DNA of 64,000 bases from Sphaerochaeta pleomorpha str. Grapes (lineage in GTDB: Bacteria > Spirochaetota > Spirochaetia > Sphaerochaetales > Sphaerochaetaceae), in assembly GCF_000236685.1 (NCBI RefSeq), contig NC_016633.1, forward strand, positions 3,353,815 to 3,417,814, read 5' to 3'. Below the pieces are notes generated by a model. That model did no database searches and had not been told where the DNA came from. It saw only the letters and a list, made by a program, of their open reading frames with translations. This document shows, piece after piece, positions 42,996 through 63,857 of this stretch; positions within the stretch are counted from its first letter, which is position 1; every line of letters begins with the position of its first letter. Position numbers and translations under genes: made by a program.

Positions 42996-43005
42996 GGTTT
43001 TCCCC

Positions 43006-45363
43006 TCAGTCCTTTCCCAGTGCTTTGAGAATTTTTTCCGGTTTGACTGGAATATCGTTCACCCTAACGCCGATGGCATTGTAGATTGCATTCTGGATTG
43101 CCCCAGGCGTACACGACACTGTGCCCTCACCAATGCCACAAGCGCCATATTTGCCGGTCCCTTTCCAGACTTCAAGCAAAACAGGATCGATTTCAGGCAT
43201 ATCTGACATGGTAGGGATGGTGTAGTCTATCCAGTTGAAGTTCAAAGGAATGCCTGTTGCCTTGTCATAGATGATTTCCTCGGTCAAAGCTTCGCCCATG
43301 CCCATGCATTGGCCTCCGATTTGTTGCGCTTCGGCTCCTGAGGCATACATGACTGTTCCGCAGTCATTGACTACCACCAGTTTCACCACCTCGACTTTTC
43401 CTGTCCCGGTGTCGACTTCAACTTCGGCAAAATTTGCAAAAAAGGGAACTCCGGTGAGTTTGACATCCGGTGTGCGACTGCTTGCAACGGTGATAGGGGC
43501 ATTGTCGCCTTTTCTCAGAAGTTCTTTGATGGTCAGGTCCAAGGAAGGCTGGGAGGTGACCAAGACTTTGCCTTGTTCGAAGAAAATCTCTGTTGAAGGG
43601 ACCTTGAGAATCTCAGAGGCTACCTCTCCGAGTTTGAGCTTGAGTTCCTTGGCGGTATCGATTAGTACTTCTGATTGCAAAAAGGAAACTGCACTATCAG
43701 TCTGTACACAGTCCTTGATTCCATCGTTGGTGTCGACGATACTTGTCCATTGGATGTCTTGCAGGGAGATATTTAGAAACTGCAGGGCTTCAGCACACCC
43801 CAGTAGATTACAGGTGTTCGACCCTCCTCCGACTTCGATGGAGGCTGCCTTCAACAAAACTGTGCAGTCGGGATTCAAGGTAAGGGTTACCTGAACCTTC
43901 CCCCTGCGTTTTTCCTGCCATTCGGCATGCCAGGAGGGATGGCAGGAGAACCCGACCCCGCGTTTCTTTGTTCCGTTAAAAAGAGGTCCTTTCCCTGGTT
44001 TGTGACGTAGGTCCTTCCACCCTATTCTCCGCTTTCCTTCCTCCAACACTACCTGCAGGCTTTTACTGGGAAGTTTTTCCCATTCATGGGCAAAATTCTT
44101 GATACAGAGATCTATTGGATCCATATCCAACTTCTCGCTCAGCTCATCGATAAGGTGGGCGAAGATAAGGTTGAACTGTGAATTCCCGACACCCCGCATC
44201 ATGCATCCGGGGATGACATTGGTATATACCCCATAGGCTTCCATGCGCAAATTGGGAATGTGGGCAAGGACGACTTCTGCAAGTTCTTTGGGTACAAACT
44301 TGAGGGCAAACATCGAGAGGTCTGCGTAGGCGCCGACATTGCCTATCGACTTGAAATGCATCGAGGTTATCGTTCCGTCCTTCTTTGCCCCGACCTTACA
44401 GGTATACTGGGCAGGTTGTCTGGTGTTGAGGAAACTCTGATGGCGGGTATGGCGGTATTTGACCGGCCTCCCTGTTTTCATCGAGAGTAGGGCGGTTATA
44501 AGAAAGAAGGGTTGGTCTCCGGTGTCTCCACGGCCAAACTGACCTCCTACGTACGAGGCGATTGCCCTGATTTTGTGCAGGGGCAAGCCAAGCATCTCAC
44601 TGATATGCATCCGTAACTGGTCTGCAGCATACGAGTTTGACCAGACTGTCAGATTGTCTTCTTTCCATTGCATGAGGCAGCACCAGTTGTCCATACTTGC
44701 CTGGGTCGCATTGTGATGGGTGGAATGTACTTCGATTACTACATCAGCAGTTTTAAAATCGGAATCGACGTTTCCCCTGTCTTCGAACACATCGGGGCCG
44801 CCGGTAGGGTCGGGGGCAAGCACGTTGCTACTGGTCAAATCGGGATGGACCAAGGGGGAGTCGATGGCCATCGACTCGATGGGGTCGAGGGCAAAAGGTT
44901 TTTTCTCCCATTCGATATCGATGAGTTTCAAGGCTTGTTCTGCAATTTTTTCGCTTTCGGCAGCTACTGCGATGCCCATTTCATCTCCGACCCAGCTTGC
45001 TCCTTCGCCAAGGACCCTTCGGTCGCGGAAAGGAAACATCATGCGGTCCCAGGTTACGGTGTCGACGCAGTCGGTCCAACCTGCATTGGTGAGTTTGAGA
45101 TTGGAGAATTCCGGATCTTTGTAGGTCATGACCGTCACTACTCCGGGAAGTGCTTCTGCTTTTTTGGTGTCAAAGGACACGATCCTTGCATTCGGGTAGG
45201 GACTTCTGAGCACTTTTGCATAGAGCAGGTCAGGAAATTTTCGTTTGATAGTCATGTCATCGGCAAACAATGCTTTCCCGCTTGCTTTCTCCCACCCATC
45301 GATTTTTGGGCGGTAGGTTCCGATAAATGTATGCGCATCTCTTGGTTTGAAGGGTTCGTTCAT
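43006..45363 (-). CDS. molybdenum hydroxylase, molybdopterin-binding subunit
   Basis: This 785-aa catalytic subunit belongs to the xanthine dehydrogenase/aldehyde oxidoreductase family and binds the molybdenum cytosine dinucleotide or similar cofactor. N-terminal hammerhead domain: KIDGWEKASGKALFADDM. Cofactor segments: SYVGGQFGRGDTGDQPF near 260, MRGVGNSQFNLIFA near 370 and the C-terminal GACGIGEGTVSCTPGAI with the catalytic Glu in GIGEG. The substrate is not evident (purine, nicotinate, aldehyde or aromatic acyl-CoA are all possible). It overlaps the [2Fe-2S] subunit by 4 bp. Confidence 0.9.
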   Translation of the reverse strand: MNEPFKPRDAHTFIGTYRPKIDGWEKASGKALFADDMTIKRKFPDLLYAKVLRSPYPNARIVSFDTKKAEALPGVVTVMTYKDPEFSNLKLTNAGWTDCVDTVTWDRMMFPFRDRRVLGEGASWVGDEMGIAVAAESEKIAEQALKLIDIEWEKKPFALDPIESMAIDSPLVHPDLTSSNVLAPDPTGGPDVFEDRGNVDSDFKTADVVIEVHSTHHNATQASMDNWCCLMQWKEDNLTVWSNSYAADQLRMHISEMLGLPLHKIRAIASYVGGQFGRGDTGDQPFFLITALLSMKTGRPVKYRHTRHQSFLNTRQPAQYTCKVGAKKDGTITSMHFKSIGNVGAYADLSMFALKFVPKELAEVVLAHIPNLRMEAYGVYTNVIPGCMMRGVGNSQFNLIFAHLIDELSEKLDMDPIDLCIKNFAHEWEKLPSKSLQVVLEEGKRRIGWKDLRHKPGKGPLFNGTKKRGVGFSCHPSWHAEWQEKRRGKVQVTLTLNPDCTVLLKAASIEVGGGSNTCNLLGCAEALQFLNISLQDIQWTSIVDTNDGIKDCVQTDSAVSFLQSEVLIDTAKELKLKLGEVASEILKVPSTEIFFEQGKVLVTSQPSLDLTIKELLRKGDNAPITVASSRTPDVKLTGVPFFANFAEVEVDTGTGKVEVVKLVVVNDCGTVMYASGAEAQQIGGQCMGMGEALTEEIIYDKATGIPLNFNWIDYTIPTMSDMPEIDPVLLEVWKGTGKYGACGIGEGTVSCTPGAIQNAIYNAIGVRVNDIPVKPEKILKALGKD

Positions 45364-45908
45364 AGGGTTTCCCCCCTTTCCCGGATTTTTTCGGCGGCCC
45401 TGAATACTGCCTGGGCAATGCCTGCATAGCAGCCACAGCGGCAGATGTTGCCACTGAGGGCATCCTTGATCTCTGCTAGGGTAGGATTTGGATTCTCATT
45501 GAGAAAAGCCTTTGCGGTCATGACAAAGCCCGGGGTGCAATAGCCGCATTGCATTGCCGTACCGTAATGGGGTTCCGATTGCTCGGCGAAGGCCTGGATT
45601 ACCGGGTCGTCCTTGGCAAGTCCTTCGATGGTGATCACCTCATGTCCATCGGCCTCTATGGCGAGCACCATACAGGAAAGTACTGCCTTGCCGTCCATAA
45701 TCACGGTACAGGCACCACAGGCTCCTTCATCACAAGCCACCTTGAGTCCCGTAAAACCGAGTTTCTCTCGAAGGAGATAGGAAAGGGTCGTAGCATTGTC
45801 AAGGTCACCTTCCAAAAGAAAGGTATGATACATTCCATTGATACGAATTCGAAGCTCTCTGCTTGGTTTCTCCACAGTAATCAGAACGTCAGGTTCTCTC
45901 TTTGACAT
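45360..45908 (-). CDS. molybdenum hydroxylase, [2Fe-2S] subunit
   Basis: This 182-aa small subunit has the plant-ferredoxin domain (KVACDEGACGACTVIMDG with a later SC) and the helical second-cluster domain (QCGYCTPGFVMTA and GNICRCGCYAGI). It carries electrons from the molybdenum site to the FAD subunit. It is the first gene of the three-gene operon; a leading stretch of about 25 residues before IRINGMYHTF is longer than usual. Confidence 0.93.
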   Translation of the reverse strand: MSKREPDVLITVEKPSRELRIRINGMYHTFLLEGDLDNATTLSYLLREKLGFTGLKVACDEGACGACTVIMDGKAVLSCMVLAIEADGHEVITIEGLAKDDPVIQAFAEQSEPHYGTAMQCGYCTPGFVMTAKAFLNENPNPTLAEIKDALSGNICRCGCYAGIAQAVFRAAEKIRERGETL

Positions 45909-52238: not shown

Positions 52239-53534
52239 TCAACTGGTTTTTGTTTTGGTGTCCAGAGGCTCCAATTCGGGAACTGTCACGCATCCATCCG
52301 GGAGTATGAGTACCTTGGGTTCCTGGATCCCCCTGTCTATTGCCCTTTGGATGCCTTCTTCGATAGCGTCTTGCAGGTTGTGGACAGGGGTAATGAACAG
52401 GCCGGTAAGTTGTTCATCCTGCATTTCCGTGAATGCTTGCACGGTAATCCTCTGCGAGACCGCAGCCATTTTCGCCGCCTTGTGGTAGCCAAGCCTGTAA
52501 CAACGGGAAATCCTGTGTAAGGCATCCCCGGCAGAAGAGGCTTCGCAAAGCAGATTCGCAAAGGTCTCGTCCCCTATCCCTTCCCTGCAGGAAGAGACCA
52601 GGATCAAGGTCCCCCCGTCTTTTACTGCAAGGGCCCCGTTGTCAATCGCCTTCTGTGACTGGTACAGGTTGATATCCATCGGGAACCTGGCTACGGACAC
52701 CACGACATCTGCTTTCTGGGGAATCTGTACGCAGAAAATCTGTTTTGCAACCCTTACCGACTCATAGAATGACTGATTGATATCCCCGGCGACAACCGAA
52801 GCGATTTTCTGTTCCTTGTCCAAAACAGCCATGATGGAGAATGTAGGGGTGGTGATTACATGCAGGGCATCCATCATATCCTCATGGACAGGGTTCCCTT
52901 CCAGTGCAAGCGATTGGGCCCTCTGGGACAACGCCAGCCTATGGTTTGCCTCAATGGTCTCATAGCCGGCAATACCCGGAAGGAAAGCCTTTCTTCCCCC
53001 GGTAAAACCGGCAAAATAATGGGGTTCCACGCTCCCCGTGACAATAACCCTGTCGGATTCGAACAGGCGCCGGTCCAGGATTATCGGTGTCCCGTTCCTT
53101 GTTGTCCCTACCTTGACCTGTTCGTCTTTTTTCTTCGCATCATGCGAAACACAGCAAGTACGCAGACGTTGTTCCAACGGACCCAGAATCTGTGAGAATT
53201 CCTGTTCTGTAGCCCCCCGGTGGGCTCCCGTGGCTACCAGGACCGTAAGGCCCGTACGTTCTGAAATACCATGCTTAGCTAGGATGGGAAGCAACGCTTC
53301 GAGCATGGTTGAGGTAGGGGTAGGGCGGGTGGCGTCATTTACGATGACCAGTACCGTTTTCGCGCCTTTTAGGAACGTGTCGAGGTCGGGGCCTCCCCGT
53401 GGTTTTTCCAAGGCCTGTGCCAGCAGAGTCAAAGCATCTTGGGATGCTATGAACTCATTGGGCTCAAAGGAACCGAGCAGGTTCCTTTCCTTTATTGAAA
53501 AAGATTGCCGGTTCCTTTGGTATTCAACCTGCAT
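52239..53534 (-). CDS. second nickel-dependent LarA-family protein
   Basis: This 431-aa paralogue of the 18539-19810 gene has IVNDATRPTPTSTM near residue 62, VATGAHRGATEQEF and VEPHYFAGFTGGRKAFLPGI; the Lys of the last motif matches the cofactor-bound Lys of LarA. ATG 53534 has AAGGAG 9 bp upstream; the frame opens at 53570. It is the last gene of the inositol operon, separated from pgk by 131 bp with a hairpin. It is expected to racemise or epimerise a hydroxyacid and needs the LarBCE cofactor pathway, which is not in the window. Confidence 0.84.
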   Translation of the reverse strand: MQVEYQRNRQSFSIKERNLLGSFEPNEFIASQDALTLLAQALEKPRGGPDLDTFLKGAKTVLVIVNDATRPTPTSTMLEALLPILAKHGISERTGLTVLVATGAHRGATEQEFSQILGPLEQRLRTCCVSHDAKKKDEQVKVGTTRNGTPIILDRRLFESDRVIVTGSVEPHYFAGFTGGRKAFLPGIAGYETIEANHRLALSQRAQSLALEGNPVHEDMMDALHVITTPTFSIMAVLDKEQKIASVVAGDINQSFYESVRVAKQIFCVQIPQKADVVVSVARFPMDINLYQSQKAIDNGALAVKDGGTLILVSSCREGIGDETFANLLCEASSAGDALHRISRCYRLGYHKAAKMAAVSQRITVQAFTEMQDEQLTGLFITPVHNLQDAIEEGIQRAIDRGIQEPKVLILPDGCVTVPELEPLDTKTKTS

Positions 53535-53595
53535 GATATGCATCTCCTTGTCTTTGAAGGCCTTTTGCATCCTGTCACCGAAAAACAGAACCCCT

Positions 53596-53665: not shown

Positions 53666-54955
53666 TTACCGTATAGGCTCGGTAAGGTTGCGGTCGTAGG
53701 CCTTTTCCATGGCAGTGATAAGGGGCAATTTCTTTTTGGACAGGAACCTGACCATTGCGCCCCCTGCGGTACAGACATACGAGTAACCTTCAAGCCCTGT
53801 GAATTTTGCAGCGGCACTGACGCTGTCGCCCCCGCCGATTACGGTATAGCCGGGAGCCTCGGCAATGGATTTCCATATTTCCCGGGTACCGTTTTCCCAT
53901 CGAGGATCCTCGTATACCCCGGCAGGTCCGTTTACAAAAACCGTGCCTGCCTGTGAGATAACACCGCAGTACCGCTCTATTGTCCGTTTTCCGATGTCCA
54001 AAAAGAGCTTTTGCTGCAGGCCGGACGGAACGGCAAAGGACGAGACCTCTGTCTCTGCCCTATTTTCCTCGTTCTCATAGGCAAGGTCCCCGGGAACAAG
54101 GAAAGAATCTCCCCATTTTTCCAAAAGGGATTCAGCTTCCTGGATGAATACAGTCAGGTCCCTGTCGTCCAAAAACGTTCTTGTCCGCTCCCCGAGCTCG
54201 ACCCCCTTTGCCAGCAGCATGACCAGGCTGGTGATTCCCGTTGTGAGGATTTTGTCGGCAGTCCCTGCTTCCAGCACGCTTCTCATCATACCGAAGGCAT
54301 CGGAGATTTTTCCTCCCCCGAGCACGAACACGCAGGGGCGTACCGGGTTCTCGGCAACCTTGGACAGGGCCGTATATTCTGCTACAAGTTGCCGCCCCCC
54401 GGCGGTGGGGAGTATTTCCTGGAAGGCTACCATCGAGGGGGCATTCCTATGGGCCGCGGCAAAGGCATCATTGACGTAGATATCCGCCAGGGGCCCCAGC
54501 GATCTCACCAGCCAGGTATCGAGCATCTGGGAAGGGGTAAGCTTTACCTCCTTCTCAAAGGCGGTCACCTCTTCGCTGAGATACCTGAGGTTTCCCAGTA
54601 GGATGGCTTCGCCTTCCTTGAGGGATTGTACGGCGGTGACGGCGGCAGGGCCGCATACATCATCGATATAGCCTACCTTCGAACCGGTGAGGGCAGAAAG
54701 GATCCGGGCATGTTCAGATAGGGGAATGAGATTCTGGTAATCCAACGTATCACCTTGGTGTGCAATCAAGGCTACCTTGGCTCCCCTTACAAGCAGCGCT
54801 TTCAAGGTAGGGGCAGCCTTTTCCAGCCTGTTCGTGTTGGTTATCTGCTTTGTCTTGGCATCGAGGGGCGAATTGATGTCGGGGCGGAACAGTACCGTCC
54901 GCCCTTTCATTTCAAAGTCTTCCAGGACCTTTATCTTTATACGGTTTTTTTCCAT
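53666..54955 (-). CDS. pgk: phosphoglycerate kinase, archaeal type
   Basis: This 429-aa kinase looks like archaeal rather than bacterial PGK: FRPDINSPLD near residue 23 (bacteria RVDFNVPL), IAHQGD near 64, YVNDAFAAAHRNAPSMV and ILPTAGGR, and the nucleotide site VIGGGDSVSAAAKF. Substrate contacts D26, N28, R43, H66, the Arg of LGNLRY and the Arg of AAHRN are kept, but the Arg three residues after the His is Asp-69 (HQGD in place of HxGRP). It overlaps gap by 19 bp. It would make ATP from 1,3-bisphosphoglycerate or another acyl phosphate. Confidence 0.85.
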   Translation of the reverse strand: MEKNRIKIKVLEDFEMKGRTVLFRPDINSPLDAKTKQITNTNRLEKAAPTLKALLVRGAKVALIAHQGDTLDYQNLIPLSEHARILSALTGSKVGYIDDVCGPAAVTAVQSLKEGEAILLGNLRYLSEEVTAFEKEVKLTPSQMLDTWLVRSLGPLADIYVNDAFAAAHRNAPSMVAFQEILPTAGGRQLVAEYTALSKVAENPVRPCVFVLGGGKISDAFGMMRSVLEAGTADKILTTGITSLVMLLAKGVELGERTRTFLDDRDLTVFIQEAESLLEKWGDSFLVPGDLAYENEENRAETEVSSFAVPSGLQQKLFLDIGKRTIERYCGVISQAGTVFVNGPAGVYEDPRWENGTREIWKSIAEAPGYTVIGGGDSVSAAAKFTGLEGYSYVCTAGGAMVRFLSKKKLPLITAMEKAYDRNLTEPIR

Positions 54956-55977
54956 GTTCCTATCCTGAGGTATTTGTTTGTCTCAGCCGTCCCTGTCTCA
55001 CGGGTGAGCTGCATCTTCATGGAAGACCGGATCGCGTCAATGTTTTCCGGGATGACCACAGACTCCTGGGGGATATTGATGGCGAACATCAGGTCCCTGC
55101 CGCTCTTTACCACGGAGTCGCTCCATACGGCAATCTCATACATGTCACCGCGGGGGTTGCCAAGGTCACGGGCATACCTGAACAGGCTCGCATTCCCTAA
55201 AAATCCCTCGCCTATCGAAACCACCCTGATACGTGGGTGCTTCTCGAAGATCTCGAGGGCATCCTTGACGCTGATATCCTGTTTCGGGGTGAGTACCACC
55301 GTGATGATATGCCCATGGGTGACCGGGGTATGGATCAGGATACCCGTTGCCTCGACATGGGGCATGATGGTCATCAGGTCCAGTGCCTGGTGGCTTGGTG
55401 CCTTGTCGATTTGCAGCGCGTTCGTCAGCCCGCGGTGGTAGTCCCCGGGGTCGGCGACACGCCTTATGATGGTGATGGCCACCTTTTCCACCCCGACGGC
55501 CCTGTCGATGCAGTCTACGGCACGGATGAGGCCGGTCGTATTGCAGGAGGTCAGTTTGAGGAAATCGACGCCGAGCCCTTTCTCAAAGTTCGCATAGCCA
55601 TGGAAGAAGACATTTGCGACATCGTTTTTTTCCCCGCCCTGGAAAATGGCATGCTTGCCATATTTCTCATACAGGAGCTTGTTTTTCGCACCGATGCCCG
55701 CACTGGTGGCATCGAGCATGATATCAACCTGCTGGACCAAGTCTTCGAGCATACCACTGATAGGAATGCCTGCCCCTTCAAGAGCTGCCTTGCCCTCAAC
55801 CGATGCGGCAAACAATCTGTAGGGCATCCCTTTTTCTTTCAGGGCCCTCACGCTGAGGGTGGGCATAACATCTGCAACCCCAACCAGTTCCATGTCACCC
55901 TGCAAGGCAACCCCATCTGCCAGCCGTTGCCCTATAACGCCATATCCGGCGACACCTACCCGTATTTTCTTTTCCAT
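54937..55977 (-). CDS. glyceraldehyde-3-phosphate dehydrogenase, type II (archaeal type)
   Basis: This 346-aa oxidoreductase matches type II (archaeal) phosphorylating GAPDH. The Rossmann motif is VAGYGVIGQRLADGVALQ (residues 9-26), the catalytic Cys lies in LTSCNTTGLIRAVD near 145, and the post-Cys segment IIRRVADPGDYHRGLTNAL and later PSHQALDLMTIMPH are typical of that type. It is unlike the bacterial GapA (no ASCTTNC). It lies 15 bp after iolE and overlaps pgk, so both are translated as a pair. NAD(P) choice and true aldehyde substrate are not clear. Confidence 0.87.
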   Translation of the reverse strand: MEKKIRVGVAGYGVIGQRLADGVALQGDMELVGVADVMPTLSVRALKEKGMPYRLFAASVEGKAALEGAGIPISGMLEDLVQQVDIMLDATSAGIGAKNKLLYEKYGKHAIFQGGEKNDVANVFFHGYANFEKGLGVDFLKLTSCNTTGLIRAVDCIDRAVGVEKVAITIIRRVADPGDYHRGLTNALQIDKAPSHQALDLMTIMPHVEATGILIHTPVTHGHIITVVLTPKQDISVKDALEIFEKHPRIRVVSIGEGFLGNASLFRYARDLGNPRGDMYEIAVWSDSVVKSGRDLMFAINIPQESVVIPENIDAIRSSMKMQLTRETGTAETNKYLRIGTWKKTV

Positions 55978-55992
55978 TCTTGTCTCCTTGCC

Positions 55993-56886
55993 TCAGATCC
56001 CTGCAGAATCCAGGATGAATTTTCTCGCCCGCATTGCATATTCCAGGGGATTTGCCTGCGCAGGGTCCTGCTCTGCCTCCACGACCCACCAACCGCAGTA
56101 TCCCCTGTCCTTCAGTTCCTTGAAAATCGGCTTAAAATCGACACAGCCATCGCCGGGGATGGTGAATACCCCGTTCTTTACCCCCTGGAGGAACGACCAT
56201 TTCTTTTCTATCGCAAGATTCCTGCGTTCTTCCCTCACGTCCTTCAGGTGTACATGCCAGATCCTGGGGTACCATTTGCAAAGCGTTGCCATAGGGTCTT
56301 CCCCCGAGAAGGCAATGTGCCCGCTGTCAAACAGAAGCCCGACCAGAGCAGGGTCTGTCGATTCCATGAGCCGGTCGATCTCCGCAGTCGTCTGGATGCC
56401 TGTTCCCATGTGGTGGTGATACGTCAGGCGAAGGCCTTTTTCCTGTGCAACCTTTCCAAGGCGGTTCAATCCCGCACAGACCTGGTTCCACTGCATGTCA
56501 GAGAAATGGGGCTTTGCGTCAAAGACAGGGACATCCTGTTTGCCCTGTATGGAATTCCCCTGTTCCGCGACCCCCACGATCTTTGCACCCATGGTGTGCA
56601 AAAAATCACAATGCCTGGCAAAGTCTTTCTCGACTTCCTCATACGGTTGGGTGGTCAGGTAGGTGCTGAACCAGGCGTTGCAGATGGAGAGCTTGCGCAT
56701 TCCCAGTTCCCTTTTTAACACCTCGGTGTCCTTCGGGTATTTGTTGCCCACCTCGCACCCAGTAAATCCGGCAAGGGCCATCTCGCTGACACACTGCTCG
56801 AAGGGGATGTTCCCCCCGAGTTCGGGAAGATCGTCATTGGTCCAGCCGATCGGGGCGATTGCCAGCGAAACCTTGTATTCTTTCAT
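55993..56886 (-). CDS. iolE: inosose dehydratase
   Basis: IolE dehydrates scyllo-inosose to a cyclohexane-dione intermediate of myo-inositol breakdown. The 297-aa TIM-barrel protein has the family features IAPIGWTNDDLPELGG at the N-terminus, GCEVGNKYPKD, LTYHHHMGTGIQ, GLLFDSGHIAFSGEDP and WHVHLKDVR, with the metal site formed by Glu, Asp and His of these strands. ATG 56886 is chosen over a long upstream extension; it lies 13 bp after iolD. Confidence 0.93.
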   Translation of the reverse strand: MKEYKVSLAIAPIGWTNDDLPELGGNIPFEQCVSEMALAGFTGCEVGNKYPKDTEVLKRELGMRKLSICNAWFSTYLTTQPYEEVEKDFARHCDFLHTMGAKIVGVAEQGNSIQGKQDVPVFDAKPHFSDMQWNQVCAGLNRLGKVAQEKGLRLTYHHHMGTGIQTTAEIDRLMESTDPALVGLLFDSGHIAFSGEDPMATLCKWYPRIWHVHLKDVREERRNLAIEKKWSFLQGVKNGVFTIPGDGCVDFKPIFKELKDRGYCGWWVVEAEQDPAQANPLEYAMRARKFILDSAGI

Positions 56887-56899
56887 GGTGAATCCTCTC

Positions 56900-58765
56900 T
56901 TAGAATTTTCTCGTTTTTTTGATTTCAGGCTGCATTTCTTTCCAGGCCTTGACGACCTCGGGGTTGCTCGATACCTCGGCAGTCCCGACACGCCACCAGG
57001 ATTCGTATCCCTTCGACATGGATTTGGGGGCAACATGGACATGGATTACCACCGGCCTTGTTTCAGCCAAGGCGAGGGACACGCAGTGTTCGAGTTCTTC
57101 TATGGTATCGGCACGGAGCCCGATAGCCCCCCAGCTCTGTGCGTTCATGGCATAGTCGACCGATAGGGAAGGGCCGGTAAGTCTGCCGGTGGCATCTTCC
57201 CTTGTCTTCCACTCATTGCCGTAGTGTACGATCCCCTGGCTCTGCTGCAGATTGTCTATGCACTGGAATCCGGCATTGTCCAGCACCACTACGATGATTT
57301 TCTGTTGTTCCTGGACTGCGGTGAGCAATTCCGAATGGAGCATGGTGTAGGCCCCGTCCCCGACAAGGGCAATTACTTCCCTGTCCTCATGGGCAATCTT
57401 GGCACCCAGGGCCGCGGCGATTTCATAGCCCATGCACGAGAAGGCATACTCAACATGATAGGTCCCTCTTTTTCTGACTCTCCAGACCCGCTGCATATCA
57501 CTGGGGATGGAGCCTGATCCTGAAATGACAATTGCATCGTTAGGCAGGAGCTTCTCGTTCAACATGCCGAGTACTTGTACCTGGGAGAGGCTGCCGGGGA
57601 TTTCCTCGGAGAAAAGACGGTCGACCTCCTCATCCCATTTGGCCTTTGCCTTAGCGATCTGGGACCCCCAGTTTGAAAGATATCCCGAGGGTAGCAATGC
57701 TTTGGTGAGTGCTTCCAAAGTCACCTTTGCGTCGGCTATGATGGGCTCGCTGTTCATCTTGTAAGCGTCGAAACCCGATACGTTGATTGACAGGAAACGG
57801 CAGGAGGGGTTCTGGAACAGCCATTTTGAACAGGTGGTGAAATCCCCGAGGCGGGTTCCCACCCCGATGACAAGGTCTGCTTTCTTTGCAAGGGTGTTTG
57901 CTGCAAGCCCCCCGGTGGACCCTATTCCCGAAAGGTTCAGCCCGTTGTCCCAAAGGATGCATCCCTTGCCGGATTGGGTCTCTGCAAACGGGATCTTGAA
58001 GTTGGAACAGAATTTCTCCAAGGCCGCACCGGCCTCGGAATAGCGGACTCCTCCCCCACAGATTACCAAGGGGTTGGAAGAGGCCTGCACCGAGGCCACC
58101 ATCCGTTGTATTTGCCTTTCGGTGGGCTCCCTTCTCTCTATGTGGTGTATTCTCTTCTCCAGGAATTCCGCAGGGTAATCATAGGCTTCCCCCTGGACGT
58201 CCTGGGGCAGCGCCACGGTTACGGCCCCGGTTTCCGCAGGGTCGGTGAGGACCCGCATGGCATTGATCATGGCCGTCATGAGTTGCTCGGGCCTGTTGAC
58301 CCTGTCCCAATAGCGGCTCACGCTCCGAAAAGCATCGTTTGCGGTGTTGGTATAGTCGTTCGGAATTTCAATCTGCTGCAGGACCGGGTCTGGCTGCCTG
58401 CTTGCAAACGCATCGCCGGGAAGCAAGAGCACCGGTATGTGGTTTGCCGTGGCAGTCCCTGCACCCGATATCATGTTCAGTGCGCCCGGTCCTATCGAAG
58501 TAGTGACAGCCAGTATCTTCCTTCTGTTGTGTTCCTTGGCAAACCCGGTGGCGGCATGTACGGCGCCCTGCTCGTTCTTTGCCTGGTAAAACGGCAGCGA
58601 GTTTTCCGCCGCCGCCAAGGCCTCCCCGAGCCCTAATACGCATCCATGCCCGAATATCCCGAATACGCCCTGTACGAATTTAGTGGTTTCCCCGTCAAAC
58701 TCCACGTACTGGTTGTCAAGGAAACGGAGCAAGGCCTGGGCCATCGTCAATCGAATAGTGTCCAT
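56900..58765 (-). CDS. iolD: 3D-(3,5/4)-trihydroxycyclohexane-1,2-dione hydrolase
   Basis: IolD is the thiamine-diphosphate enzyme that opens the inositol ring. The 621-aa product has FGHGCVLGLGEAL and the catalytic Glu in FYQAKNEQGAVHAA near the N-terminus, a middle domain, and the ThDP motif GDGAYTML...VVLDNAGFQ near 480-520. ATG 58765 has AAAGGAG 6 bp upstream; the frame extends to 58861 without a ribosome site. It is flanked by iolB and iolE with 13-bp gaps. Confidence 0.95.
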   Translation of the reverse strand: MDTIRLTMAQALLRFLDNQYVEFDGETTKFVQGVFGIFGHGCVLGLGEALAAAENSLPFYQAKNEQGAVHAATGFAKEHNRRKILAVTTSIGPGALNMISGAGTATANHIPVLLLPGDAFASRQPDPVLQQIEIPNDYTNTANDAFRSVSRYWDRVNRPEQLMTAMINAMRVLTDPAETGAVTVALPQDVQGEAYDYPAEFLEKRIHHIERREPTERQIQRMVASVQASSNPLVICGGGVRYSEAGAALEKFCSNFKIPFAETQSGKGCILWDNGLNLSGIGSTGGLAANTLAKKADLVIGVGTRLGDFTTCSKWLFQNPSCRFLSINVSGFDAYKMNSEPIIADAKVTLEALTKALLPSGYLSNWGSQIAKAKAKWDEEVDRLFSEEIPGSLSQVQVLGMLNEKLLPNDAIVISGSGSIPSDMQRVWRVRKRGTYHVEYAFSCMGYEIAAALGAKIAHEDREVIALVGDGAYTMLHSELLTAVQEQQKIIVVVLDNAGFQCIDNLQQSQGIVHYGNEWKTREDATGRLTGPSLSVDYAMNAQSWGAIGLRADTIEELEHCVSLALAETRPVVIHVHVAPKSMSKGYESWWRVGTAEVSSNPEVVKAWKEMQPEIKKTRKF

Positions 58766-58778
58766 ATAGGCTCCTTTG

Positions 58779-59585
58779 TTATTGGTTTCTCTTTGGTTCC
58801 CAGATTTCTGCCCCAGGTTCCGTAACCCATTTGTATTGGGGGGGGACTGTCTGTACCCCATACCTGTTTCCCTCGAGATGCCTGATCACCCACAGATACC
58901 ACAGGGCATAGCCGGGTGCCGTCACATGCGGGTGCACTTCCTGGTCATGTATGAGGATGGTGTCCTTATCCTTGATAAGGTAGGGCGTTTCCCCGATCGC
59001 ACAGAAACCGAATCCCTGTTCGGGCTGGACCCTGTAGTGGTAGATTTCCGGTTGGGGATGGTGATGCGGAGGGTAGCTGGACCATTTGCCGGGGACTCCG
59101 ATTACCTCACCGATGACAAGGTTCGACTCAGGCCTGTTTGTATCGTCGAAAACCGTGCGTACGATCCTCGTCGAGGTTTCGCCCATCATCCCTTCACCCC
59201 TGAATTCGCTCATGCATTCACTGGGGGTGAAAAGCCGGGACTCGAACTGCAGCGGGTTGTCCGTGGCACAGCGGTAGAACTCCGCCCCGCTTTCCCCCGC
59301 CTTGATGGTTACTGCAATGGCAGAAGGTACTGACAATACCCAAGGCCCATGGTCGAACAAATCGGGTCTGAACATCTCTTGCTCCCGTTCTCCCCAGGCA
59401 ATCGTCGCCGAACCTTTTGCAAGCAGCCAGATGCGCTCGTCGCCGGTGCCTGCGCAATCCTGCCAGATCTCATTCGCTTTCAGGACAAGGACCCCGAAAC
59501 TCATGAACATGTCGCTTGTCGGACCCGACCGGGGTACCAGTTCGGTATAGCCTCGAACATAGGGCCCCTTGTGTCTCATCTGCAT
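58779..59585 (-). CDS. iolB: 5-deoxy-glucuronate isomerase
   Basis: IolB isomerises 5-deoxyglucuronate to 2-deoxy-5-keto-gluconate. The 268-aa bicupin has the metal-binding cluster SSYPPHHHPQPEIYHYR near residue 170 and HDQEVHPHVTAPGYALWY near 220. GGGAG lies 8 bp before the ATG, inside the end of iolG. Its product would normally go to IolC kinase and IolJ aldolase, neither of which is in the window. Confidence 0.93.
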   Translation of the reverse strand: MQMRHKGPYVRGYTELVPRSGPTSDMFMSFGVLVLKANEIWQDCAGTGDERIWLLAKGSATIAWGEREQEMFRPDLFDHGPWVLSVPSAIAVTIKAGESGAEFYRCATDNPLQFESRLFTPSECMSEFRGEGMMGETSTRIVRTVFDDTNRPESNLVIGEVIGVPGKWSSYPPHHHPQPEIYHYRVQPEQGFGFCAIGETPYLIKDKDTILIHDQEVHPHVTAPGYALWYLWVIRHLEGNRYGVQTVPPQYKWVTEPGAEIWEPKRNQ

Positions 59586-59588
59586 CGC

Positions 59589-60623
59589 CTATACTCCCAG
59601 TTCTTTTTTCATTTCCTTGATTGTGACGGGCCGGTGTTCTTTCAGGGACTTCCCGGCTGCCAAGGCAGCGACCATGTCCTCAAAGCCGTCTTCTCCGCCT
59701 ACCTCGACAGCAGTGTCCTTGAGGATTGCCTCCACAAAGGAGGTTATCTCGCCGATATACGCATCCTTATACCGCTCCAGAAAGAAATGGAGGGGTTTCT
59801 CTCCCTTCACCCCGTCAACGGTTGCAAGTGTCACTGAATTGGCGGTATCGTTTTCGCACTGGGCCGAACCTTTCGACCCGAAAACCTCGACCCGCTGGTC
59901 ATAGCCGTAGACAGCCTGCCTGGAATTGTCGATGACCCCGATAGCCCCGTTTGCGAACTTGAGGGTGACGATTGCCGTATCGATATCGCCGGCTTTTCCT
60001 ATTTCCGGGTCGACCAGTACAGCTCCAGTGGCATAGACCTCGGTAATCTCGCTCCCTGCCTGGAAGCGGGCCATGTCAAAGTCATGGATCATCATGTCAA
60101 GGAAAATCCCGCCTGACACCGCAACATAGGCAGCCGAGGGTGGGGCCGGGTCCCTAGAGGTGATCTTTACGATCTGGATGTCCCCGACCTGCCCTGTTCT
60201 TCCCAATTCCCGTATATGCTGGAAGTTGTGGTCAAACCGTCTGTTGAACCCAAGCTGGAGCTTCACCCCTGCTTCTTTTGCAACCTTGATTGCCTCAAGG
60301 CCCTTCTGTACGGACAGGTCGATCGGTTTCTCGCAGAATATATGTTTCCCTGCCCTTGCCGCGGCGATTATGAAATCGGCATGGGTCGAAGTGGAGCTGC
60401 AGATGACCACGGCCTTGATATCGGGATTACCGATGAGGTCCATGGCATCCCCGGTTGCCAGAGGTATATTCAGGCTTTCAGCCCAGAGCCGTGTCTCTTC
60501 GTTCATGTTCACATCGGCAATCCCGATGATTTCTACGCTTGGGACCATGCGGGAAATATTCTCCGTATGCAACCGCCCGATCCTGCCTGCCCCGATGATG
60601 CCGATTTTATATTTTCCGCTCAT
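59589..60623 (-). CDS. iolG: myo-inositol 2-dehydrogenase
   Basis: IolG oxidises myo-inositol to scyllo-inosose with NAD+. The 344-aa GFO/IDH/MocA protein has the Rossmann motif IGIIGAGRIGRLHTENI at residues 7-23, the catalytic Lys in FCEKPIDLS near 95, and FLDMMIHDFDMARF near 172 with the conserved Asp and His. It is the first gene of the operon, about 40 bp downstream of an operator-promoter at 60677-60727. Confidence 0.92.
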   Translation of the reverse strand: MSGKYKIGIIGAGRIGRLHTENISRMVPSVEIIGIADVNMNEETRLWAESLNIPLATGDAMDLIGNPDIKAVVICSSTSTHADFIIAAARAGKHIFCEKPIDLSVQKGLEAIKVAKEAGVKLQLGFNRRFDHNFQHIRELGRTGQVGDIQIVKITSRDPAPPSAAYVAVSGGIFLDMMIHDFDMARFQAGSEITEVYATGAVLVDPEIGKAGDIDTAIVTLKFANGAIGVIDNSRQAVYGYDQRVEVFGSKGSAQCENDTANSVTLATVDGVKGEKPLHFFLERYKDAYIGEITSFVEAILKDTAVEVGGEDGFEDMVAALAAGKSLKEHRPVTIKEMKKELGV

Positions 60624-60676
60624 TTCTTGGATTCCTTCCTTCTTATTTCGTACAGAGGCTTTTTTTGAAAATTTAT

Positions 60677-60727
60677 GAAAACGTTACCAATTAATATTGA
60701 GTATACTACGAAGTCATTATTTGTAAA
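60677..60727 (-). promoter_or_regulatory. iolG operon promoter with LacI-type operator
   Basis: On the minus strand, -35 TTTACA (60727-60722), a 16-bp spacer and -10 TATACT (60705-60700) are followed 11 bp later by GGTAACGTTTTC (60688-60677). The same operator word recurs at 60821, 62521 and 62755, so the LacI-family protein encoded next door probably represses here. Confidence 0.75.
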
Positions 60728-60820
60728 GTATTTTCTCTTGTCAGTAGTTAATAGAGTATAATCTTGAAACTGAAAAGTAATAATTGACAAATGTATAAAT
60801 AGATGTGAGCATAAAATAAT

Positions 60821-60832
60821 GATAACGTTTTC
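60821..60832 (+). promoter_or_regulatory. second LacI-type operator in the iolG-regulator region
   Basis: GATAACGTTTTC has the same ACGT-centred half-sites, with its centre 144 bp from the iolG operator. A TTGACA lies at 60784-60789 but no well-spaced -10 goes with it. It may help form a repression loop or control the regulator gene. Confidence 0.6.
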
Positions 60833-60839
60833 ATTTATA

Positions 60840-61244
60840 GTGCATAAAAATACCTTGAAAAATGGTACTGGCCTATCTGCAGTGCAAGCATGCCTGCGAT
60901 GGCTACATGCTCCTGGAATACAAGGTATGGATTCTGAAATTGTGTTTGAAAAGGTTGGTTGCTTCCTGTTTCGTCGACAGGCAATTAATTCAGGCAAACA
61001 AAGGACTTGCCTTTATGCTAGTATGTGCTTGCTGATAGCCGGATGGTACTGTTTTGCAGCCTGTGGAGCCTAGTGGTTTGAGATCCGTCGAAGACCTCCT
61101 GGCAAAGGGGATTGCATGTGACTTGGTTTGCTGCCGTCTTTGCATCAAAGTAGTCCTTGCCTAAGGCTGTTGCTTTTTTTCTTCATGAAGTTGTATAAAA
61201 AAAGGATTCTCTGCTAAGATTCTAAGGCTCGAAAGGAATTGCAT
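60840..61244 (+). other. upstream region of the regulator gene
   Basis: I see no supported gene; an 84-codon frame at 60819-61073 lacks a ribosome site. TTGTAT (61191-61196), an 18-bp spacer and TAAGAT (61215-61220) could be the regulator's promoter. Confidence 0.4.
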
Positions 61245-62255
61245 ATGGTAAGTATCAAAGAAGTAGCACAAAAGGCCGGAGTATCAGTTTCCACCGTTTC
61301 CCGGGTTATCAACGGGAAGCAGAATGTGAGTCCTGAGAAAAGGGCTAAGATTATGCAGATGGTAAAAGCTACGGGATATGTTCCAAACAGGGCAGCCAGG
61401 GATATGGTCATGAAACGTAGTTTCACCGTCGGGATAATCATTCCGATGACCTTCAATATGTTCCAACGCCAGCTGTTTTCCGATATTGAGCATCATCTGG
61501 AGGACTTCGGATATCATTCCAGTTTCTATTTCGTCGCAATGAGTCAGGAGAGCGAAGAGGCTTGCCTGAGACGTTTGAAAGGTGAGAAGACCGATGGTGT
61601 TATCCTGCTCCACGAAATTGAACTACCTGAATTTCGCGAATACCTGGAAAAGAATGATATTCCTTCAGTAATCGCTACGTTTGAGAAGGAACGATGGAAA
61701 TCGACCAGTATCCATATCAGCGAGAATGAGGCCGCTAGCGCTGCGGTGAACCATCTGATCAAGCTTGGGCATAGGGAAATTGCTCTTTTGAGTGGCAAAC
61801 GGTATTCCTTTGGGCGTCAGCGCCTGCAAGGCTATGTAAATGCGCTTGAAAGTGCCGGTATTCCCTACAACGAGTCAAAGGTTGTCTTTGTCGATTCTTA
61901 CAGCATCAGCGACGGCATGTCCGGTATGAAAGAACTGCTTGACCGGAAAATCTCGTTTTCTGCTTTGTTTGCCATTACCGATGAATTGGCTATCGGTGCA
62001 ATGAGATACCTGAAAGACAGGGGGTACCAGGTGCCTGGGGATATCTCGGTAGTCGGTTGCGATGATATCGAAATATCTTCCTATACCATTCCCCGGTTGA
62101 CAACCATTCGGCAACCGGTTTCCGAAATGGGCAAAATGTCTGTTGCCATGCTCCATTCCCTGATCACCAGCGAAAGTAAAATGAATGTAAATATTGCCCT
62201 TCCCTTTACTTTGATTGAAAGGGAGTCTGTAACCGAATATACAAAGAACATCTAA
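61245..62255 (+). CDS. LacI family repressor, probably of the inositol operon
   Basis: This 336-aa regulator has the LacI helix-turn-helix and hinge (MVSIKEVAQKAGVSVSTVSR, NGKQNVSPEKRAKI, then NRAARDMV) and a periplasmic-binding-type ligand domain (residues about 60-330, with GHREIALLSG and SVVGCDDIEISSYTIPRL). ATG 61245 has AAAGGA 8 bp upstream. Four operator matches flank the gene, at 60677, 60821, 62521 and 62755, linking it to the iol operon and to the ABC transporter. The inducer is probably an inositol or a breakdown product. Confidence 0.9.
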   Translation: MVSIKEVAQKAGVSVSTVSRVINGKQNVSPEKRAKIMQMVKATGYVPNRAARDMVMKRSFTVGIIIPMTFNMFQRQLFSDIEHHLEDFGYHSSFYFVAMSQESEEACLRRLKGEKTDGVILLHEIELPEFREYLEKNDIPSVIATFEKERWKSTSIHISENEAASAAVNHLIKLGHREIALLSGKRYSFGRQRLQGYVNALESAGIPYNESKVVFVDSYSISDGMSGMKELLDRKISFSALFAITDELAIGAMRYLKDRGYQVPGDISVVGCDDIEISSYTIPRLTTIRQPVSEMGKMSVAMLHSLITSESKMNVNIALPFTLIERESVTEYTKNI

Positions 62256-62480: not shown

Positions 62481-62532
62481 TTGACGATTTTGTTGGGGGA
62501 GAAATATAATGAATACTATTGAAAACGTTTGC
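62481..62532 (+). promoter_or_regulatory. transporter promoter-operator module 1
   Basis: -35 TTGACG (62481-62486), an 18-bp spacer and -10 TATAAT (62505-62510), then after 10 bp the operator GAAAACGTTTGC (62521-62532). Confidence 0.8.
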
Positions 62533-62715
62533 ATATGGAATTTCCCAGCTATAAGGGGTTATTGTCGCCAGTCAGGTTATGGAAAACCAAAAGAGAATGG
62601 CCCCTGGCTGGAAAGGTTTTTGTTGAGGGGAATGTATACATGCACACAATTAATACGATTAAGGAACAATTTTAGCTTCCTCTGCTGATGGGAAATGAAA
62701 AAAATACCTTTTTGC

Positions 62716-62766
62716 TTGACGGTTTTTGAAAGCTAGAAATATAATGACGTTATTGGTAACGTTTTC
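62716..62766 (+). promoter_or_regulatory. transporter promoter-operator module 2
   Basis: -35 TTGACG (62716-62721), an 18-bp spacer and -10 TATAAT (62740-62745), then after 9 bp the operator GGTAACGTTTTC (62755-62766). Arrangement and words nearly copy module 1, 235 bp upstream. Confidence 0.82.
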
Positions 62767-62948
62767 AAAGAATAGTGAATTGTACCAGATATTCGAACGA
62801 AAGCTTTGAAAGATGGCTTGAAAACCAAGATACCGTTACTAGCTGAGAAGAATTATTTTCAAGTATCGTCTGGTGCTTTCCCCCTGACCAAACGAACCGA
62901 TCGGCTCTCAGGGAATGAACCTAAATATCTAAGATGATGGAGTATCTA

Positions 62949-63857
62949 ATGAAAGTATCCAAGAAAATACAAATTTCATCTCCCAGAAAAAGAAGTCTGT
63001 CTCACGTGTATGAGCCTTACCTGTTTTTACTCCCTTCCCTCACCATTTTTTCCTTGTTCCTTTACTATCCTTTTATCCGTACCATGTATCTCAGCGCCTT
63101 TTTGACTAACAAGGTAGGTAAGCCTAAGATTCTTGCTGCATTTACGGAAAATGACAATTACCTTGCCTTATTCAAAGACCCCTCGTTCTGGGCAAGTGTT
63201 GTTGTAACGTTCCAATTTGTTGCCATAGTGGCACTGGGAGGGTTGCTTATAGGGTTGACCTCCAGCCTTCTCACCGAAAAGAAGTATTTTGGGTCCAGTA
63301 TAACGGCGGCTGTCTATGCCATGCCTATCGCAATAGCCTCTGCGGCTGCTTCCATGTCTTTCAAAATGATATTGCATCCGACCATTGGCCTGCTCAATTC
63401 ACTTATGGGTACCCAGATCAATTTCACCGGTGATTCTCGGTATGCCTTGGCCTCGGTCGCGGGGATGACCATCTGGCTTACCAGCGGCATCAACTTCATT
63501 TTCATCAGTGCAGGGCTTCGTAATGTTCCTGCAGAACTCTATGACAGTGCTTCCGTTGATGGGGCAGGGTATTGGAGAAAAGTGTTCAATGTTACTCTGC
63601 CGTGCATTTCGCCTACACTTTTCTTCCAGATTATTATCAATATAATCGGGGCCTTCCAGGCTTTCAGTCAGATTAAATTGCTGACAGAAGGTGGCCCTGG
63701 GGATGCTACAAACGTAATGGTGTGGTCTATTTACAAGGATGCATTCCGAAACTTCAGGTTCGGAGCGGCGGCCTCCAGGTCAATCGTTCTTTTCCTTATA
63801 GTGCTTACGATTACGATAATACAGTTTAGATTTGAGAAAAGGGGTGTGAACTACTAA
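62949..63857 (+). CDS. sugar ABC transporter permease (MalF/UgpA type)
   Basis: This 302-aa permease has six membrane segments, starting LFLLPSLTIFSLFLYYPFIR, and the coupling loop ELYDSASVDGAGYWRKVFNV (EAA-like) near residue 205, followed by LPCISPTLFFQIIINIIGAF. ATG 62949 has GGAG 6 bp upstream and is preferred over 62934. It belongs to the carbohydrate (CUT1) group. Control by the LacI protein suggests inositol or a glycoside or phosphodiester of it as substrate; no binding protein is inside the window. Confidence 0.88.
   Translation: MKVSKKIQISSPRKRSLSHVYEPYLFLLPSLTIFSLFLYYPFIRTMYLSAFLTNKVGKPKILAAFTENDNYLALFKDPSFWASVVVTFQFVAIVALGGLLIGLTSSLLTEKKYFGSSITAAVYAMPIAIASAAASMSFKMILHPTIGLLNSLMGTQINFTGDSRYALASVAGMTIWLTSGINFIFISAGLRNVPAELYDSASVDGAGYWRKVFNVTLPCISPTLFFQIIINIIGAFQAFSQIKLLTEGGPGDATNVMVWSIYKDAFRNFRFGAAASRSIVLFLIVLTITIIQFRFEKRGVNY

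Follow-up and report, generated by a model that had tools for sequence, protein, structure and literature searches.

Gene content and regulation of the locus

The window, a 64,000-nucleotide stretch of the genome of Sphaerochaeta pleomorpha str. Grapes, carries on the minus strand from 60623 to 52239 a single operon comprising iolG, an iolB-like gene, iolD, iolE, genes for a type II glyceraldehyde 3-phosphate dehydrogenase (GAPDH) and an archaeal-type phosphoglycerate kinase (PGK), here designated gapII and pgkII, and a larA homologue. Intergenic gaps range from -143 to +95 bp, the bigger overlaps being a product of longest-ORF calls. The features of the locus are as follows.

59589..60623, minus strand: iolG, myo-inositol 2-dehydrogenase (TIGR04380, 467.4 bits; cut-off 355)
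58779..59585, minus strand: iolB-like (KduI/IolB) isomerase, 5-deoxyglucuronate to 2-deoxy-5-keto-gluconate (PF04962, E 4e-49)
56900..58861, minus strand: iolD, trihydroxycyclohexane-dione hydrolase (TIGR04377, 893.7 bits; cut-off 715)
55993..57042, minus strand: iolE, inosose dehydratase (TIGR04379, 410.8 bits; cut-off 290)
54937..55977, minus strand: gapII, type II (archaeal-type) GAPDH-like, proposed phosphorylating malate-semialdehyde dehydrogenase (profile and structure-relative matches)
53666..54955, minus strand: pgkII, archaeal-type PGK-like, proposed malyl-phosphate:ADP phosphotransferase (profile and structure-relative matches)
52239..53570, minus strand: larA homologue, proposed nickel-dependent malate racemase (best NCBIfam model LarAH6; nearest solved relative Mar2)
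60676..60689, plus strand: LacI-type operator TGAAAACGTTACCA, upstream of iolG (palindrome TGNNAACGTTNNCA)
60820..60833, plus strand: LacI-type operator TGATAACGTTTTCA, upstream of iolG (palindrome search; the same core precedes iolG in locus L048)
61239..62255, plus strand: LacI-family regulator, divergent (PF00356 and PF13377)
62520..62533, plus strand: LacI-type operator, upstream of the ABC transporter (palindrome search)
62754..62767, plus strand: LacI-type operator, upstream of the ABC transporter (palindrome search)
62934..63857, plus strand: ABC sugar-transport permease, first gene of the divergent transporter (sequence read by eye)

The sequence-only reading of this DNA had placed the GAPDH and PGK genes directly after iolE with a mutual overlap of 19 bp, and had described the operon as lacking iolC and ending in a LarA-like protein. 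All of this was borne out: the overlap lies on the minus strand, gapII starts 15 bp past iolE, and the last gene does encode a LarA-like protein. Within the operon, iolJ was likewise not found. The iolB-like product scored 91 bits against TIGR04378, under the cut-off of 205; it matches KduI/IolB in Pfam and is 65-78% identical to IolB of the sister operons in L045 and L048. The listed start of iolD is that of the longest ORF and the real start is probably further in, as is probably the case for iolE, where the TIGR04379 match only begins at residue 57. A 493-aa antisense ORF at 55237-56718 (plus strand) lies over iolE and gapII, and L045 has one too; it is probably a codon-usage by-product, able to mislead gene calling. 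Elsewhere in the window, at 40614-45908 on the minus strand, three genes, when read by eye, resemble a set of the xanthine-dehydrogenase type; in the first of them a pyridine-nucleotide oxidoreductase region seems to be inserted or fused.

The palindrome TGNNAACGTTNNCA has four matches in 64 kb against 0.05 expected, two before iolG, two before the transporter and none elsewhere in the window. Since these matches flank both iolG and the transporter, the iol operon, the LacI gene and the transporter probably form one regulon. The regulator is 55% identical to the LacI protein adjoining the iol-gapII operon of L048, and a second permease and a binding protein of the same transporter, read by eye, lie past the window end.

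The archaeal-type enzymes and their housekeeping counterparts

Family models and nearest solved relatives agree with the earlier assignment of both enzymes to archaeal types. The 346-aa GAPDH scored 398.6 bits against NF003251 (type II GAPDH; cut-off 185) and 306.5 bits against TIGR01546 (archaeal GAPDH-II; cut-off 232.9). Its top solved relatives are all archaeal (2czc, 1cf2, 1b7g and 2yyy), and the same four structures lie far ahead of all other matches to its predicted fold. The 429-aa PGK scored 338 bits against PF00162 (cut-off 27) and is nearest to 2cun of Pyrococcus horikoshii both by sequence and by predicted fold, 2cun being the top fold match of a model with a pLDDT of 91.8.

GapII shares its fold and its catalytic Cys and His with archaeal type II GAPDH (2czc, 1cf2, 1b7g) at 35-42% identity; Cys145, in SCNTTGL, and His223 are retained in alignment with the archaeal enzymes. 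It differs from them in fixed changes beside these catalytic residues (positions 141-143, 212, 214, 221 and 225), in operon partners that belong to malate metabolism, and in belonging to a large bacterial clade of its own, which a quick tree with few archaeal rows sets apart from the archaeal sequences at an SH-aLRT of 100. The window gapII nests there in a Sphaerochaetaceae group (7 rows, support 95), and its presence can be explained without a recent transfer from archaea into this genome; such a transfer is unsupported by the tree, and the idea that the pair had been obtained by transfer as a local oddity was not supported in that form. One homologue, at L052:7337-9626 (G246; 42% identity), has lost the catalytic Cys, with LPQPSL replacing TSCNTT; it was rejected as a functional homologue and left out of the locus counts. 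It is still paired with pgkII, and genes for a split transketolase and for a UMP kinase of archaeal type adjoin it. The GAPDH-II of L043, a distant archaeal-like copy without pgkII or iol genes, was also set aside.

PgkII resembles archaeal-type PGK (2cun) in fold (TM 0.86-0.91), in 35% identity and in Arg38, His62, Arg122 and Arg170; these four, with Asp23 and Asn25 (human numbering), are invariant across the PgkII family. It differs in that Arg/Lys65 is replaced in every member examined. Arg is lost at position 65 in 84/84 sequences, in favour of Asp (48), Ser (34) or Gly (2), and Lys219 is Ala in all 84. The window enzyme has Asp65, leaving the basic patch for the 3-phosphate incomplete. 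Yeast PGK mutants at Arg65 stay active, so this change alone is no proof of a new substrate. Two PgkII sequence types, AHQGDTLDY (Asp65) and AHQGSDIEY (Ser65), were seen across the 86 loci described below, and may mark two lineages or two substrates.

The genome is a single contig of 3.59 Mb. A search for a separate bacterial gapA and pgk, set beforehand as the check that could overturn the special role of the pair, located both side by side at about 384-386 kb (223.8 and 540.8 bits), apart from gapII-pgkII, and a housekeeping role for the latter was rejected for this reason. The top genome-wide match to the iolC model reached 228 bits (cut-off 300) and scores higher as a KDG kinase; it adjoins a KDPG aldolase gene (eda) and a KdgR-like regulator, and was rejected as a hidden iolC. 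By gene content, the operon makes 2-deoxy-5-keto-D-gluconate (DKG) in a genome without the kinase by which the known route would use it.

Operon linkage and the replacement of iolC

Among 296 sampled genomes of Spirochaetota, 11 exceeded the type II GAPDH cut-off; nine of these 11 loci hold a close GapII homologue, and PGK is always beside it or near. A scan anchored on the GAPDH returned at least 495 relatives, mainly from Clostridia, Spirochaetes and Chloroflexi, with 80 loci from named genomes. Reference proteins were mapped on 86 non-redundant gapII loci from five phyla; as these were found via gapII, the counts express linkage, not frequency: pgkII at 82, larA at 58, iolE at 46, iolD at 45, transketolase N and C subunits at 40 and 39, and malic enzyme at 31. 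The recurring partners are iolBDEG, a split transketolase, a LarA malate racemase, and malic enzyme or a tartrate/D-malate dehydrogenase. Clostridium magnum, Fonticella and Carboxydocella have complete operons of the form gapII-pgkII-tkN-tkC-iolB-iolD-iolE-iolG-larA, and Flexilinea has the full set with its genes ordered differently; some gapII operons add malic enzyme and others carry the tartrate/D-malate-dehydrogenase-type gene. The arrangement, which had struck the first reading as unfamiliar, thus recurs in operons of several phyla. Canonical gapA is also present in 36 of 38 gapII genomes.

In 39 of the 86 loci, iolB, iolD and iolE were absent from the stretch examined, and these are not all short contigs (Christensenellaceae, Acetobacterium and Sphaerochaeta L060); the pair may therefore also have functions outside inositol use. 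Either the iol genes lie elsewhere in these genomes or other substrates give the same aldehyde. Acetobacterium, Alkalibacter and Tindallia have gapII-pgkII-malic enzyme-larA with no iol gene in view. A Sphaerochaeta contig (L060:4508-13557) carries a sugar ABC transporter, a signature transketolase pair, an FGGY-like kinase, gapII, pgkII and larA without iol genes, and here the same payoff module may serve another sugar. Genomes of Christensenellaceae and related groups (L077, L079, L080, L086, L092, L107, L114) have gapII-pgkII with no iol, transketolase or larA gene nearby; canonical gapA was found in five of these seven, with no match in two MAGs. In L071 (a second copy in Clostridium magnum), L101, L110 and L111 (Acetobacterium), gapII adjoins molybdenum-hydroxylase-like genes and an E1/E2 dehydrogenase complex that, read by eye, is acetoin-dehydrogenase-like.

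The relation to iolC was assessed in a sample not chosen via gapII, namely 391 genomes from the class of Clostridium magnum. The iolD gene was found in 28, of which 12 have iolC (11 over the cut-off and one at 283 bits beside iolD), 12 have gapII and none has both (Fisher p 7e-5, uncorrected for genome kinship). Overall, gapII occurs in 16 genomes, that is in 12/28 with iolD and 4/363 without it (p 2e-12, likewise uncorrected for kinship). Given the lack of overlap among the 28, iolC and gapII behave as alternatives, with exceptions: two of 20 gapII genomes have iolC over the cut-off, and Clostridium ganghwense has iolC plus a gapII operon.

The other four iolD genomes (L156, L165, L166 and L167) looked at first like counter-examples, but they carry a distant transaldolase-like gene inside their iol operons and were no longer taken as such. 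This protein, of 358-359 aa, is encoded at L156:6865-7941, L161:6997-8070, L165:9425-10498, L166:6913-7986 and L167:7077-8150, in iolBDEG operons with neither iolC nor gapII beside it. By analogy with sulfo-transaldolase, it suggests a third, transaldolase-type inositol route. L156 and L166 also encode a CoA-acylating aldehyde dehydrogenase (SauS-like or MMSDH).

The operonic transketolase C subunits have a common signature, with His416 of human TKT replaced by Asp and Asp424 by Asn in 38/38; five further BLAST matches (L071, L101, L110, L111 and L119) resemble dehydrogenase E1-beta and were dropped. The His-to-Asp change is also found in sulfofructose transketolase, whose donor bears a sulfonate instead of a phosphate (PMC11659671). 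The window operon itself has no transketolase gene. Elsewhere in the genome there are two split pairs that bear the signature, at C1:2766351 (minus strand) and C1:2235395 (plus strand), and the phosphate-site His is Asp in both. One adjoins rpiB and an Fe-alcohol dehydrogenase gene and the other a class II aldolase-like gene, and on account of these neighbours the pairs may serve other substrates. A malic enzyme gene lies at about 1474 kb.

The best NCBIfam model for the window LarA is the malate racemase LarAH6 (NF052593) at 459.9 bits, under the cut-off of 500, and two other spirochaete LarAs are also under it (399 and 412 bits). The cut-off is passed at 550-604 bits by the operonic LarAs of L066, L087, L088, L046 and L126 (three Clostridia, Flexilinea and one spirochaete). 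The best solved relative is malate racemase Mar2 (6d6z), whose Lys351, which binds the second carboxylate, is conserved in the window enzyme (GYHK) and kept in 56 of 57 LarAs as GGHK or GYHK. Malate racemase activity has been measured for Mar2 of the LarAH6 family (PMC7583248). Mar2 is thus the closest relative of known structure for the window LarA, which keeps the malate-binding Lys, and Clostridial operonic copies exceed the family cut-off; on the other side, the window copy falls under it, and the consulted passages on Mar2 describe no role in inositol breakdown.

A candidate malate branch of inositol catabolism

We consider the gapII-pgkII operon to be a kinase-free branch of myo-inositol catabolism leading from DKG through a C4 aldehyde to D-malate with a gain of ATP, at a probability of about 0.77. 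Gene content, operon conservation, the replacement of iolC and the residue changes are the observations behind it; we infer all the steps between DKG and D-malate, that of transketolase included, and likewise which transketolase would serve the window genome. IolG, IolE, IolD and IolB would produce DKG which, with no IolC, would serve as the ketose donor of a transketolase whose head-group site is altered. As a ketose, DKG is HOCH2-CO-CHOH-CHOH-CH2-COO-; its name and established sugar stereochemistry give it the D-threo configuration required by transketolase. Transfer of C1-C2 to a sugar-phosphate acceptor (e.g. glyceraldehyde 3-phosphate, giving xylulose 5-phosphate) would leave OHC-CHOH-CH2-COO-, that is 3-hydroxy-4-oxobutanoate or 'malate semialdehyde', the carboxylate analogue of D-glyceraldehyde 3-phosphate in which carboxymethyl replaces phosphomethyl. 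Using NAD(P)+ and phosphate, GapII would oxidise this aldehyde to D-malyl 1-phosphate; PgkII would transfer the phosphate to ADP, giving ATP and D-malate, and LarA would convert D-malate to L-malate for malic enzyme, or a D-malate/tartrate-type dehydrogenase would act directly, yielding pyruvate, CO2 and NAD(P)H. The D-gluconate configuration of DKG implies that the C4 product oxidises to (R)-, that is D-malate, which would explain the racemase or the D-malate dehydrogenase. The active-site changes in PgkII, transketolase and GapII fit such a scheme.

The sequence-only reading had suggested that the pair is a dedicated module yielding energy from an inositol-derived aldehyde, and this is most likely correct; its candidate substrates, a triose or malonic semialdehyde, are not supported, because a C4 aldehyde that becomes malate is what the conserved partners indicate, namely the split transketolase, the malate racemase, and malic enzyme or tartrate/D-malate dehydrogenase. 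Conversion of malonic semialdehyde to malonyl phosphate and then, with ATP gain, to malonate is mechanistically conceivable as acyl phosphate formation from a semialdehyde, and cleavage of DKG 6-phosphate is known to give malonate semialdehyde as a C3 product. This compound, however, lacks an alpha-hydroxyl and is not evidently connected to malate racemase, malic enzyme or split transketolase, and two loci expected to make it through the transaldolase-like enzyme instead encode an aldehyde dehydrogenase of the CoA-acylating kind (MMSDH or SauS type), which together make this substrate very improbable.

The retained catalytic cores, the folds shared with archaeal GAPDH and PGK, and the pairs outside iol contexts would also suit ordinary glycolytic isoenzymes that take glyceraldehyde 3-phosphate to 3-phosphoglycerate and handle triose phosphate from inositol. 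Yet without iolC the known route yields no triose phosphate from inositol, a transketolase route would consume glyceraldehyde 3-phosphate, gapA is already present in nearly all gapII genomes, Arg65 is lost throughout PgkII and the constant neighbours are malate enzymes; we regard this explanation as unlikely. It is likewise unlikely that the pair acts on 3-hydroxy-4-oxobutanoate derived chiefly from a non-inositol source, with iol genes as frequent co-passengers. The iol-free gapII-pgkII-malic enzyme-larA clusters of Acetobacterium, Alkalibacter and Tindallia and the transketolase-FGGY kinase-gapII-pgkII-larA contig of Sphaerochaeta L060 would accord with it, whereas the co-occurrence of gapII with iolD, its exclusion with iolC within iolD-positive genomes, and the four operators of one LacI type, which within the window are confined to the flanks of the iol operon and transporter, tie the pair to inositol.

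The malate branch would share with canonical myo-inositol catabolism (IolG-E-D-B-C-J-A) of Bacillus subtilis and Salmonella the first four enzymes to DKG (PMC9430895). It would differ in the lack of IolC in the window genome, the use of unphosphorylated DKG, a C2/C4 rather than C3/C3 split, and ATP gained rather than spent. In the sulfo-transketolase pathway (SqwGH; PMC11659671) a split transketolase with the same His-to-Asp change likewise takes C1-C2 off a 6-carbon ketose in which an acidic group replaces phosphate; there the group is a sulfonate, not a carboxylate, and the C4 product is isomerised and cleaved again, not oxidised via an acyl phosphate with ATP gain. The carnitine pathway of Acinetobacter also oxidises a malic semialdehyde to malate (PMC11353897), starting from carnitine and possibly through the other regio-isomer, with no GAPDH-PGK pair mentioned in the abstract. 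A search of the open-access literature gave no description of inositol together with transketolase, malate racemase, D-malate, malate semialdehyde or transaldolase, an absence that is no proof of novelty. We know of no malate-semialdehyde dehydrogenase or D-malyl-phosphate kinase activity assigned to the GAPDH or PGK families. The operons probably represent a widespread pathway of inositol use that is so far undescribed. In it, a GAPDH and a PGK would together have taken on new roles, as phosphorylating malate-semialdehyde dehydrogenase and D-malyl-phosphate kinase, and a sugar acid carrying no phosphate would support substrate-level phosphorylation.

Phytate-derived inositol is a major substrate of plant origin in gut and sediment; a large survey of its use looks for the canonical genes (PMC9430895). 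Many of the scanned gapII operons come from anaerobes, among them Clostridia of the rumen and other gut sites, and to such organisms it would matter that ATP is earned instead of spent. The pathway predicts D-malate as an intermediate and no DKG phosphate. It would explain the 'archaeal' GAPDH in bacteria that already have gapA and the malate racemases adjoining malic enzyme, and would add new activities to two enzyme families. If true, this branch together with the kinase/aldolase and transaldolase-like variants would make DKG a three-way fork in inositol breakdown, as sulfofructose is in that of sulfoquinovose.
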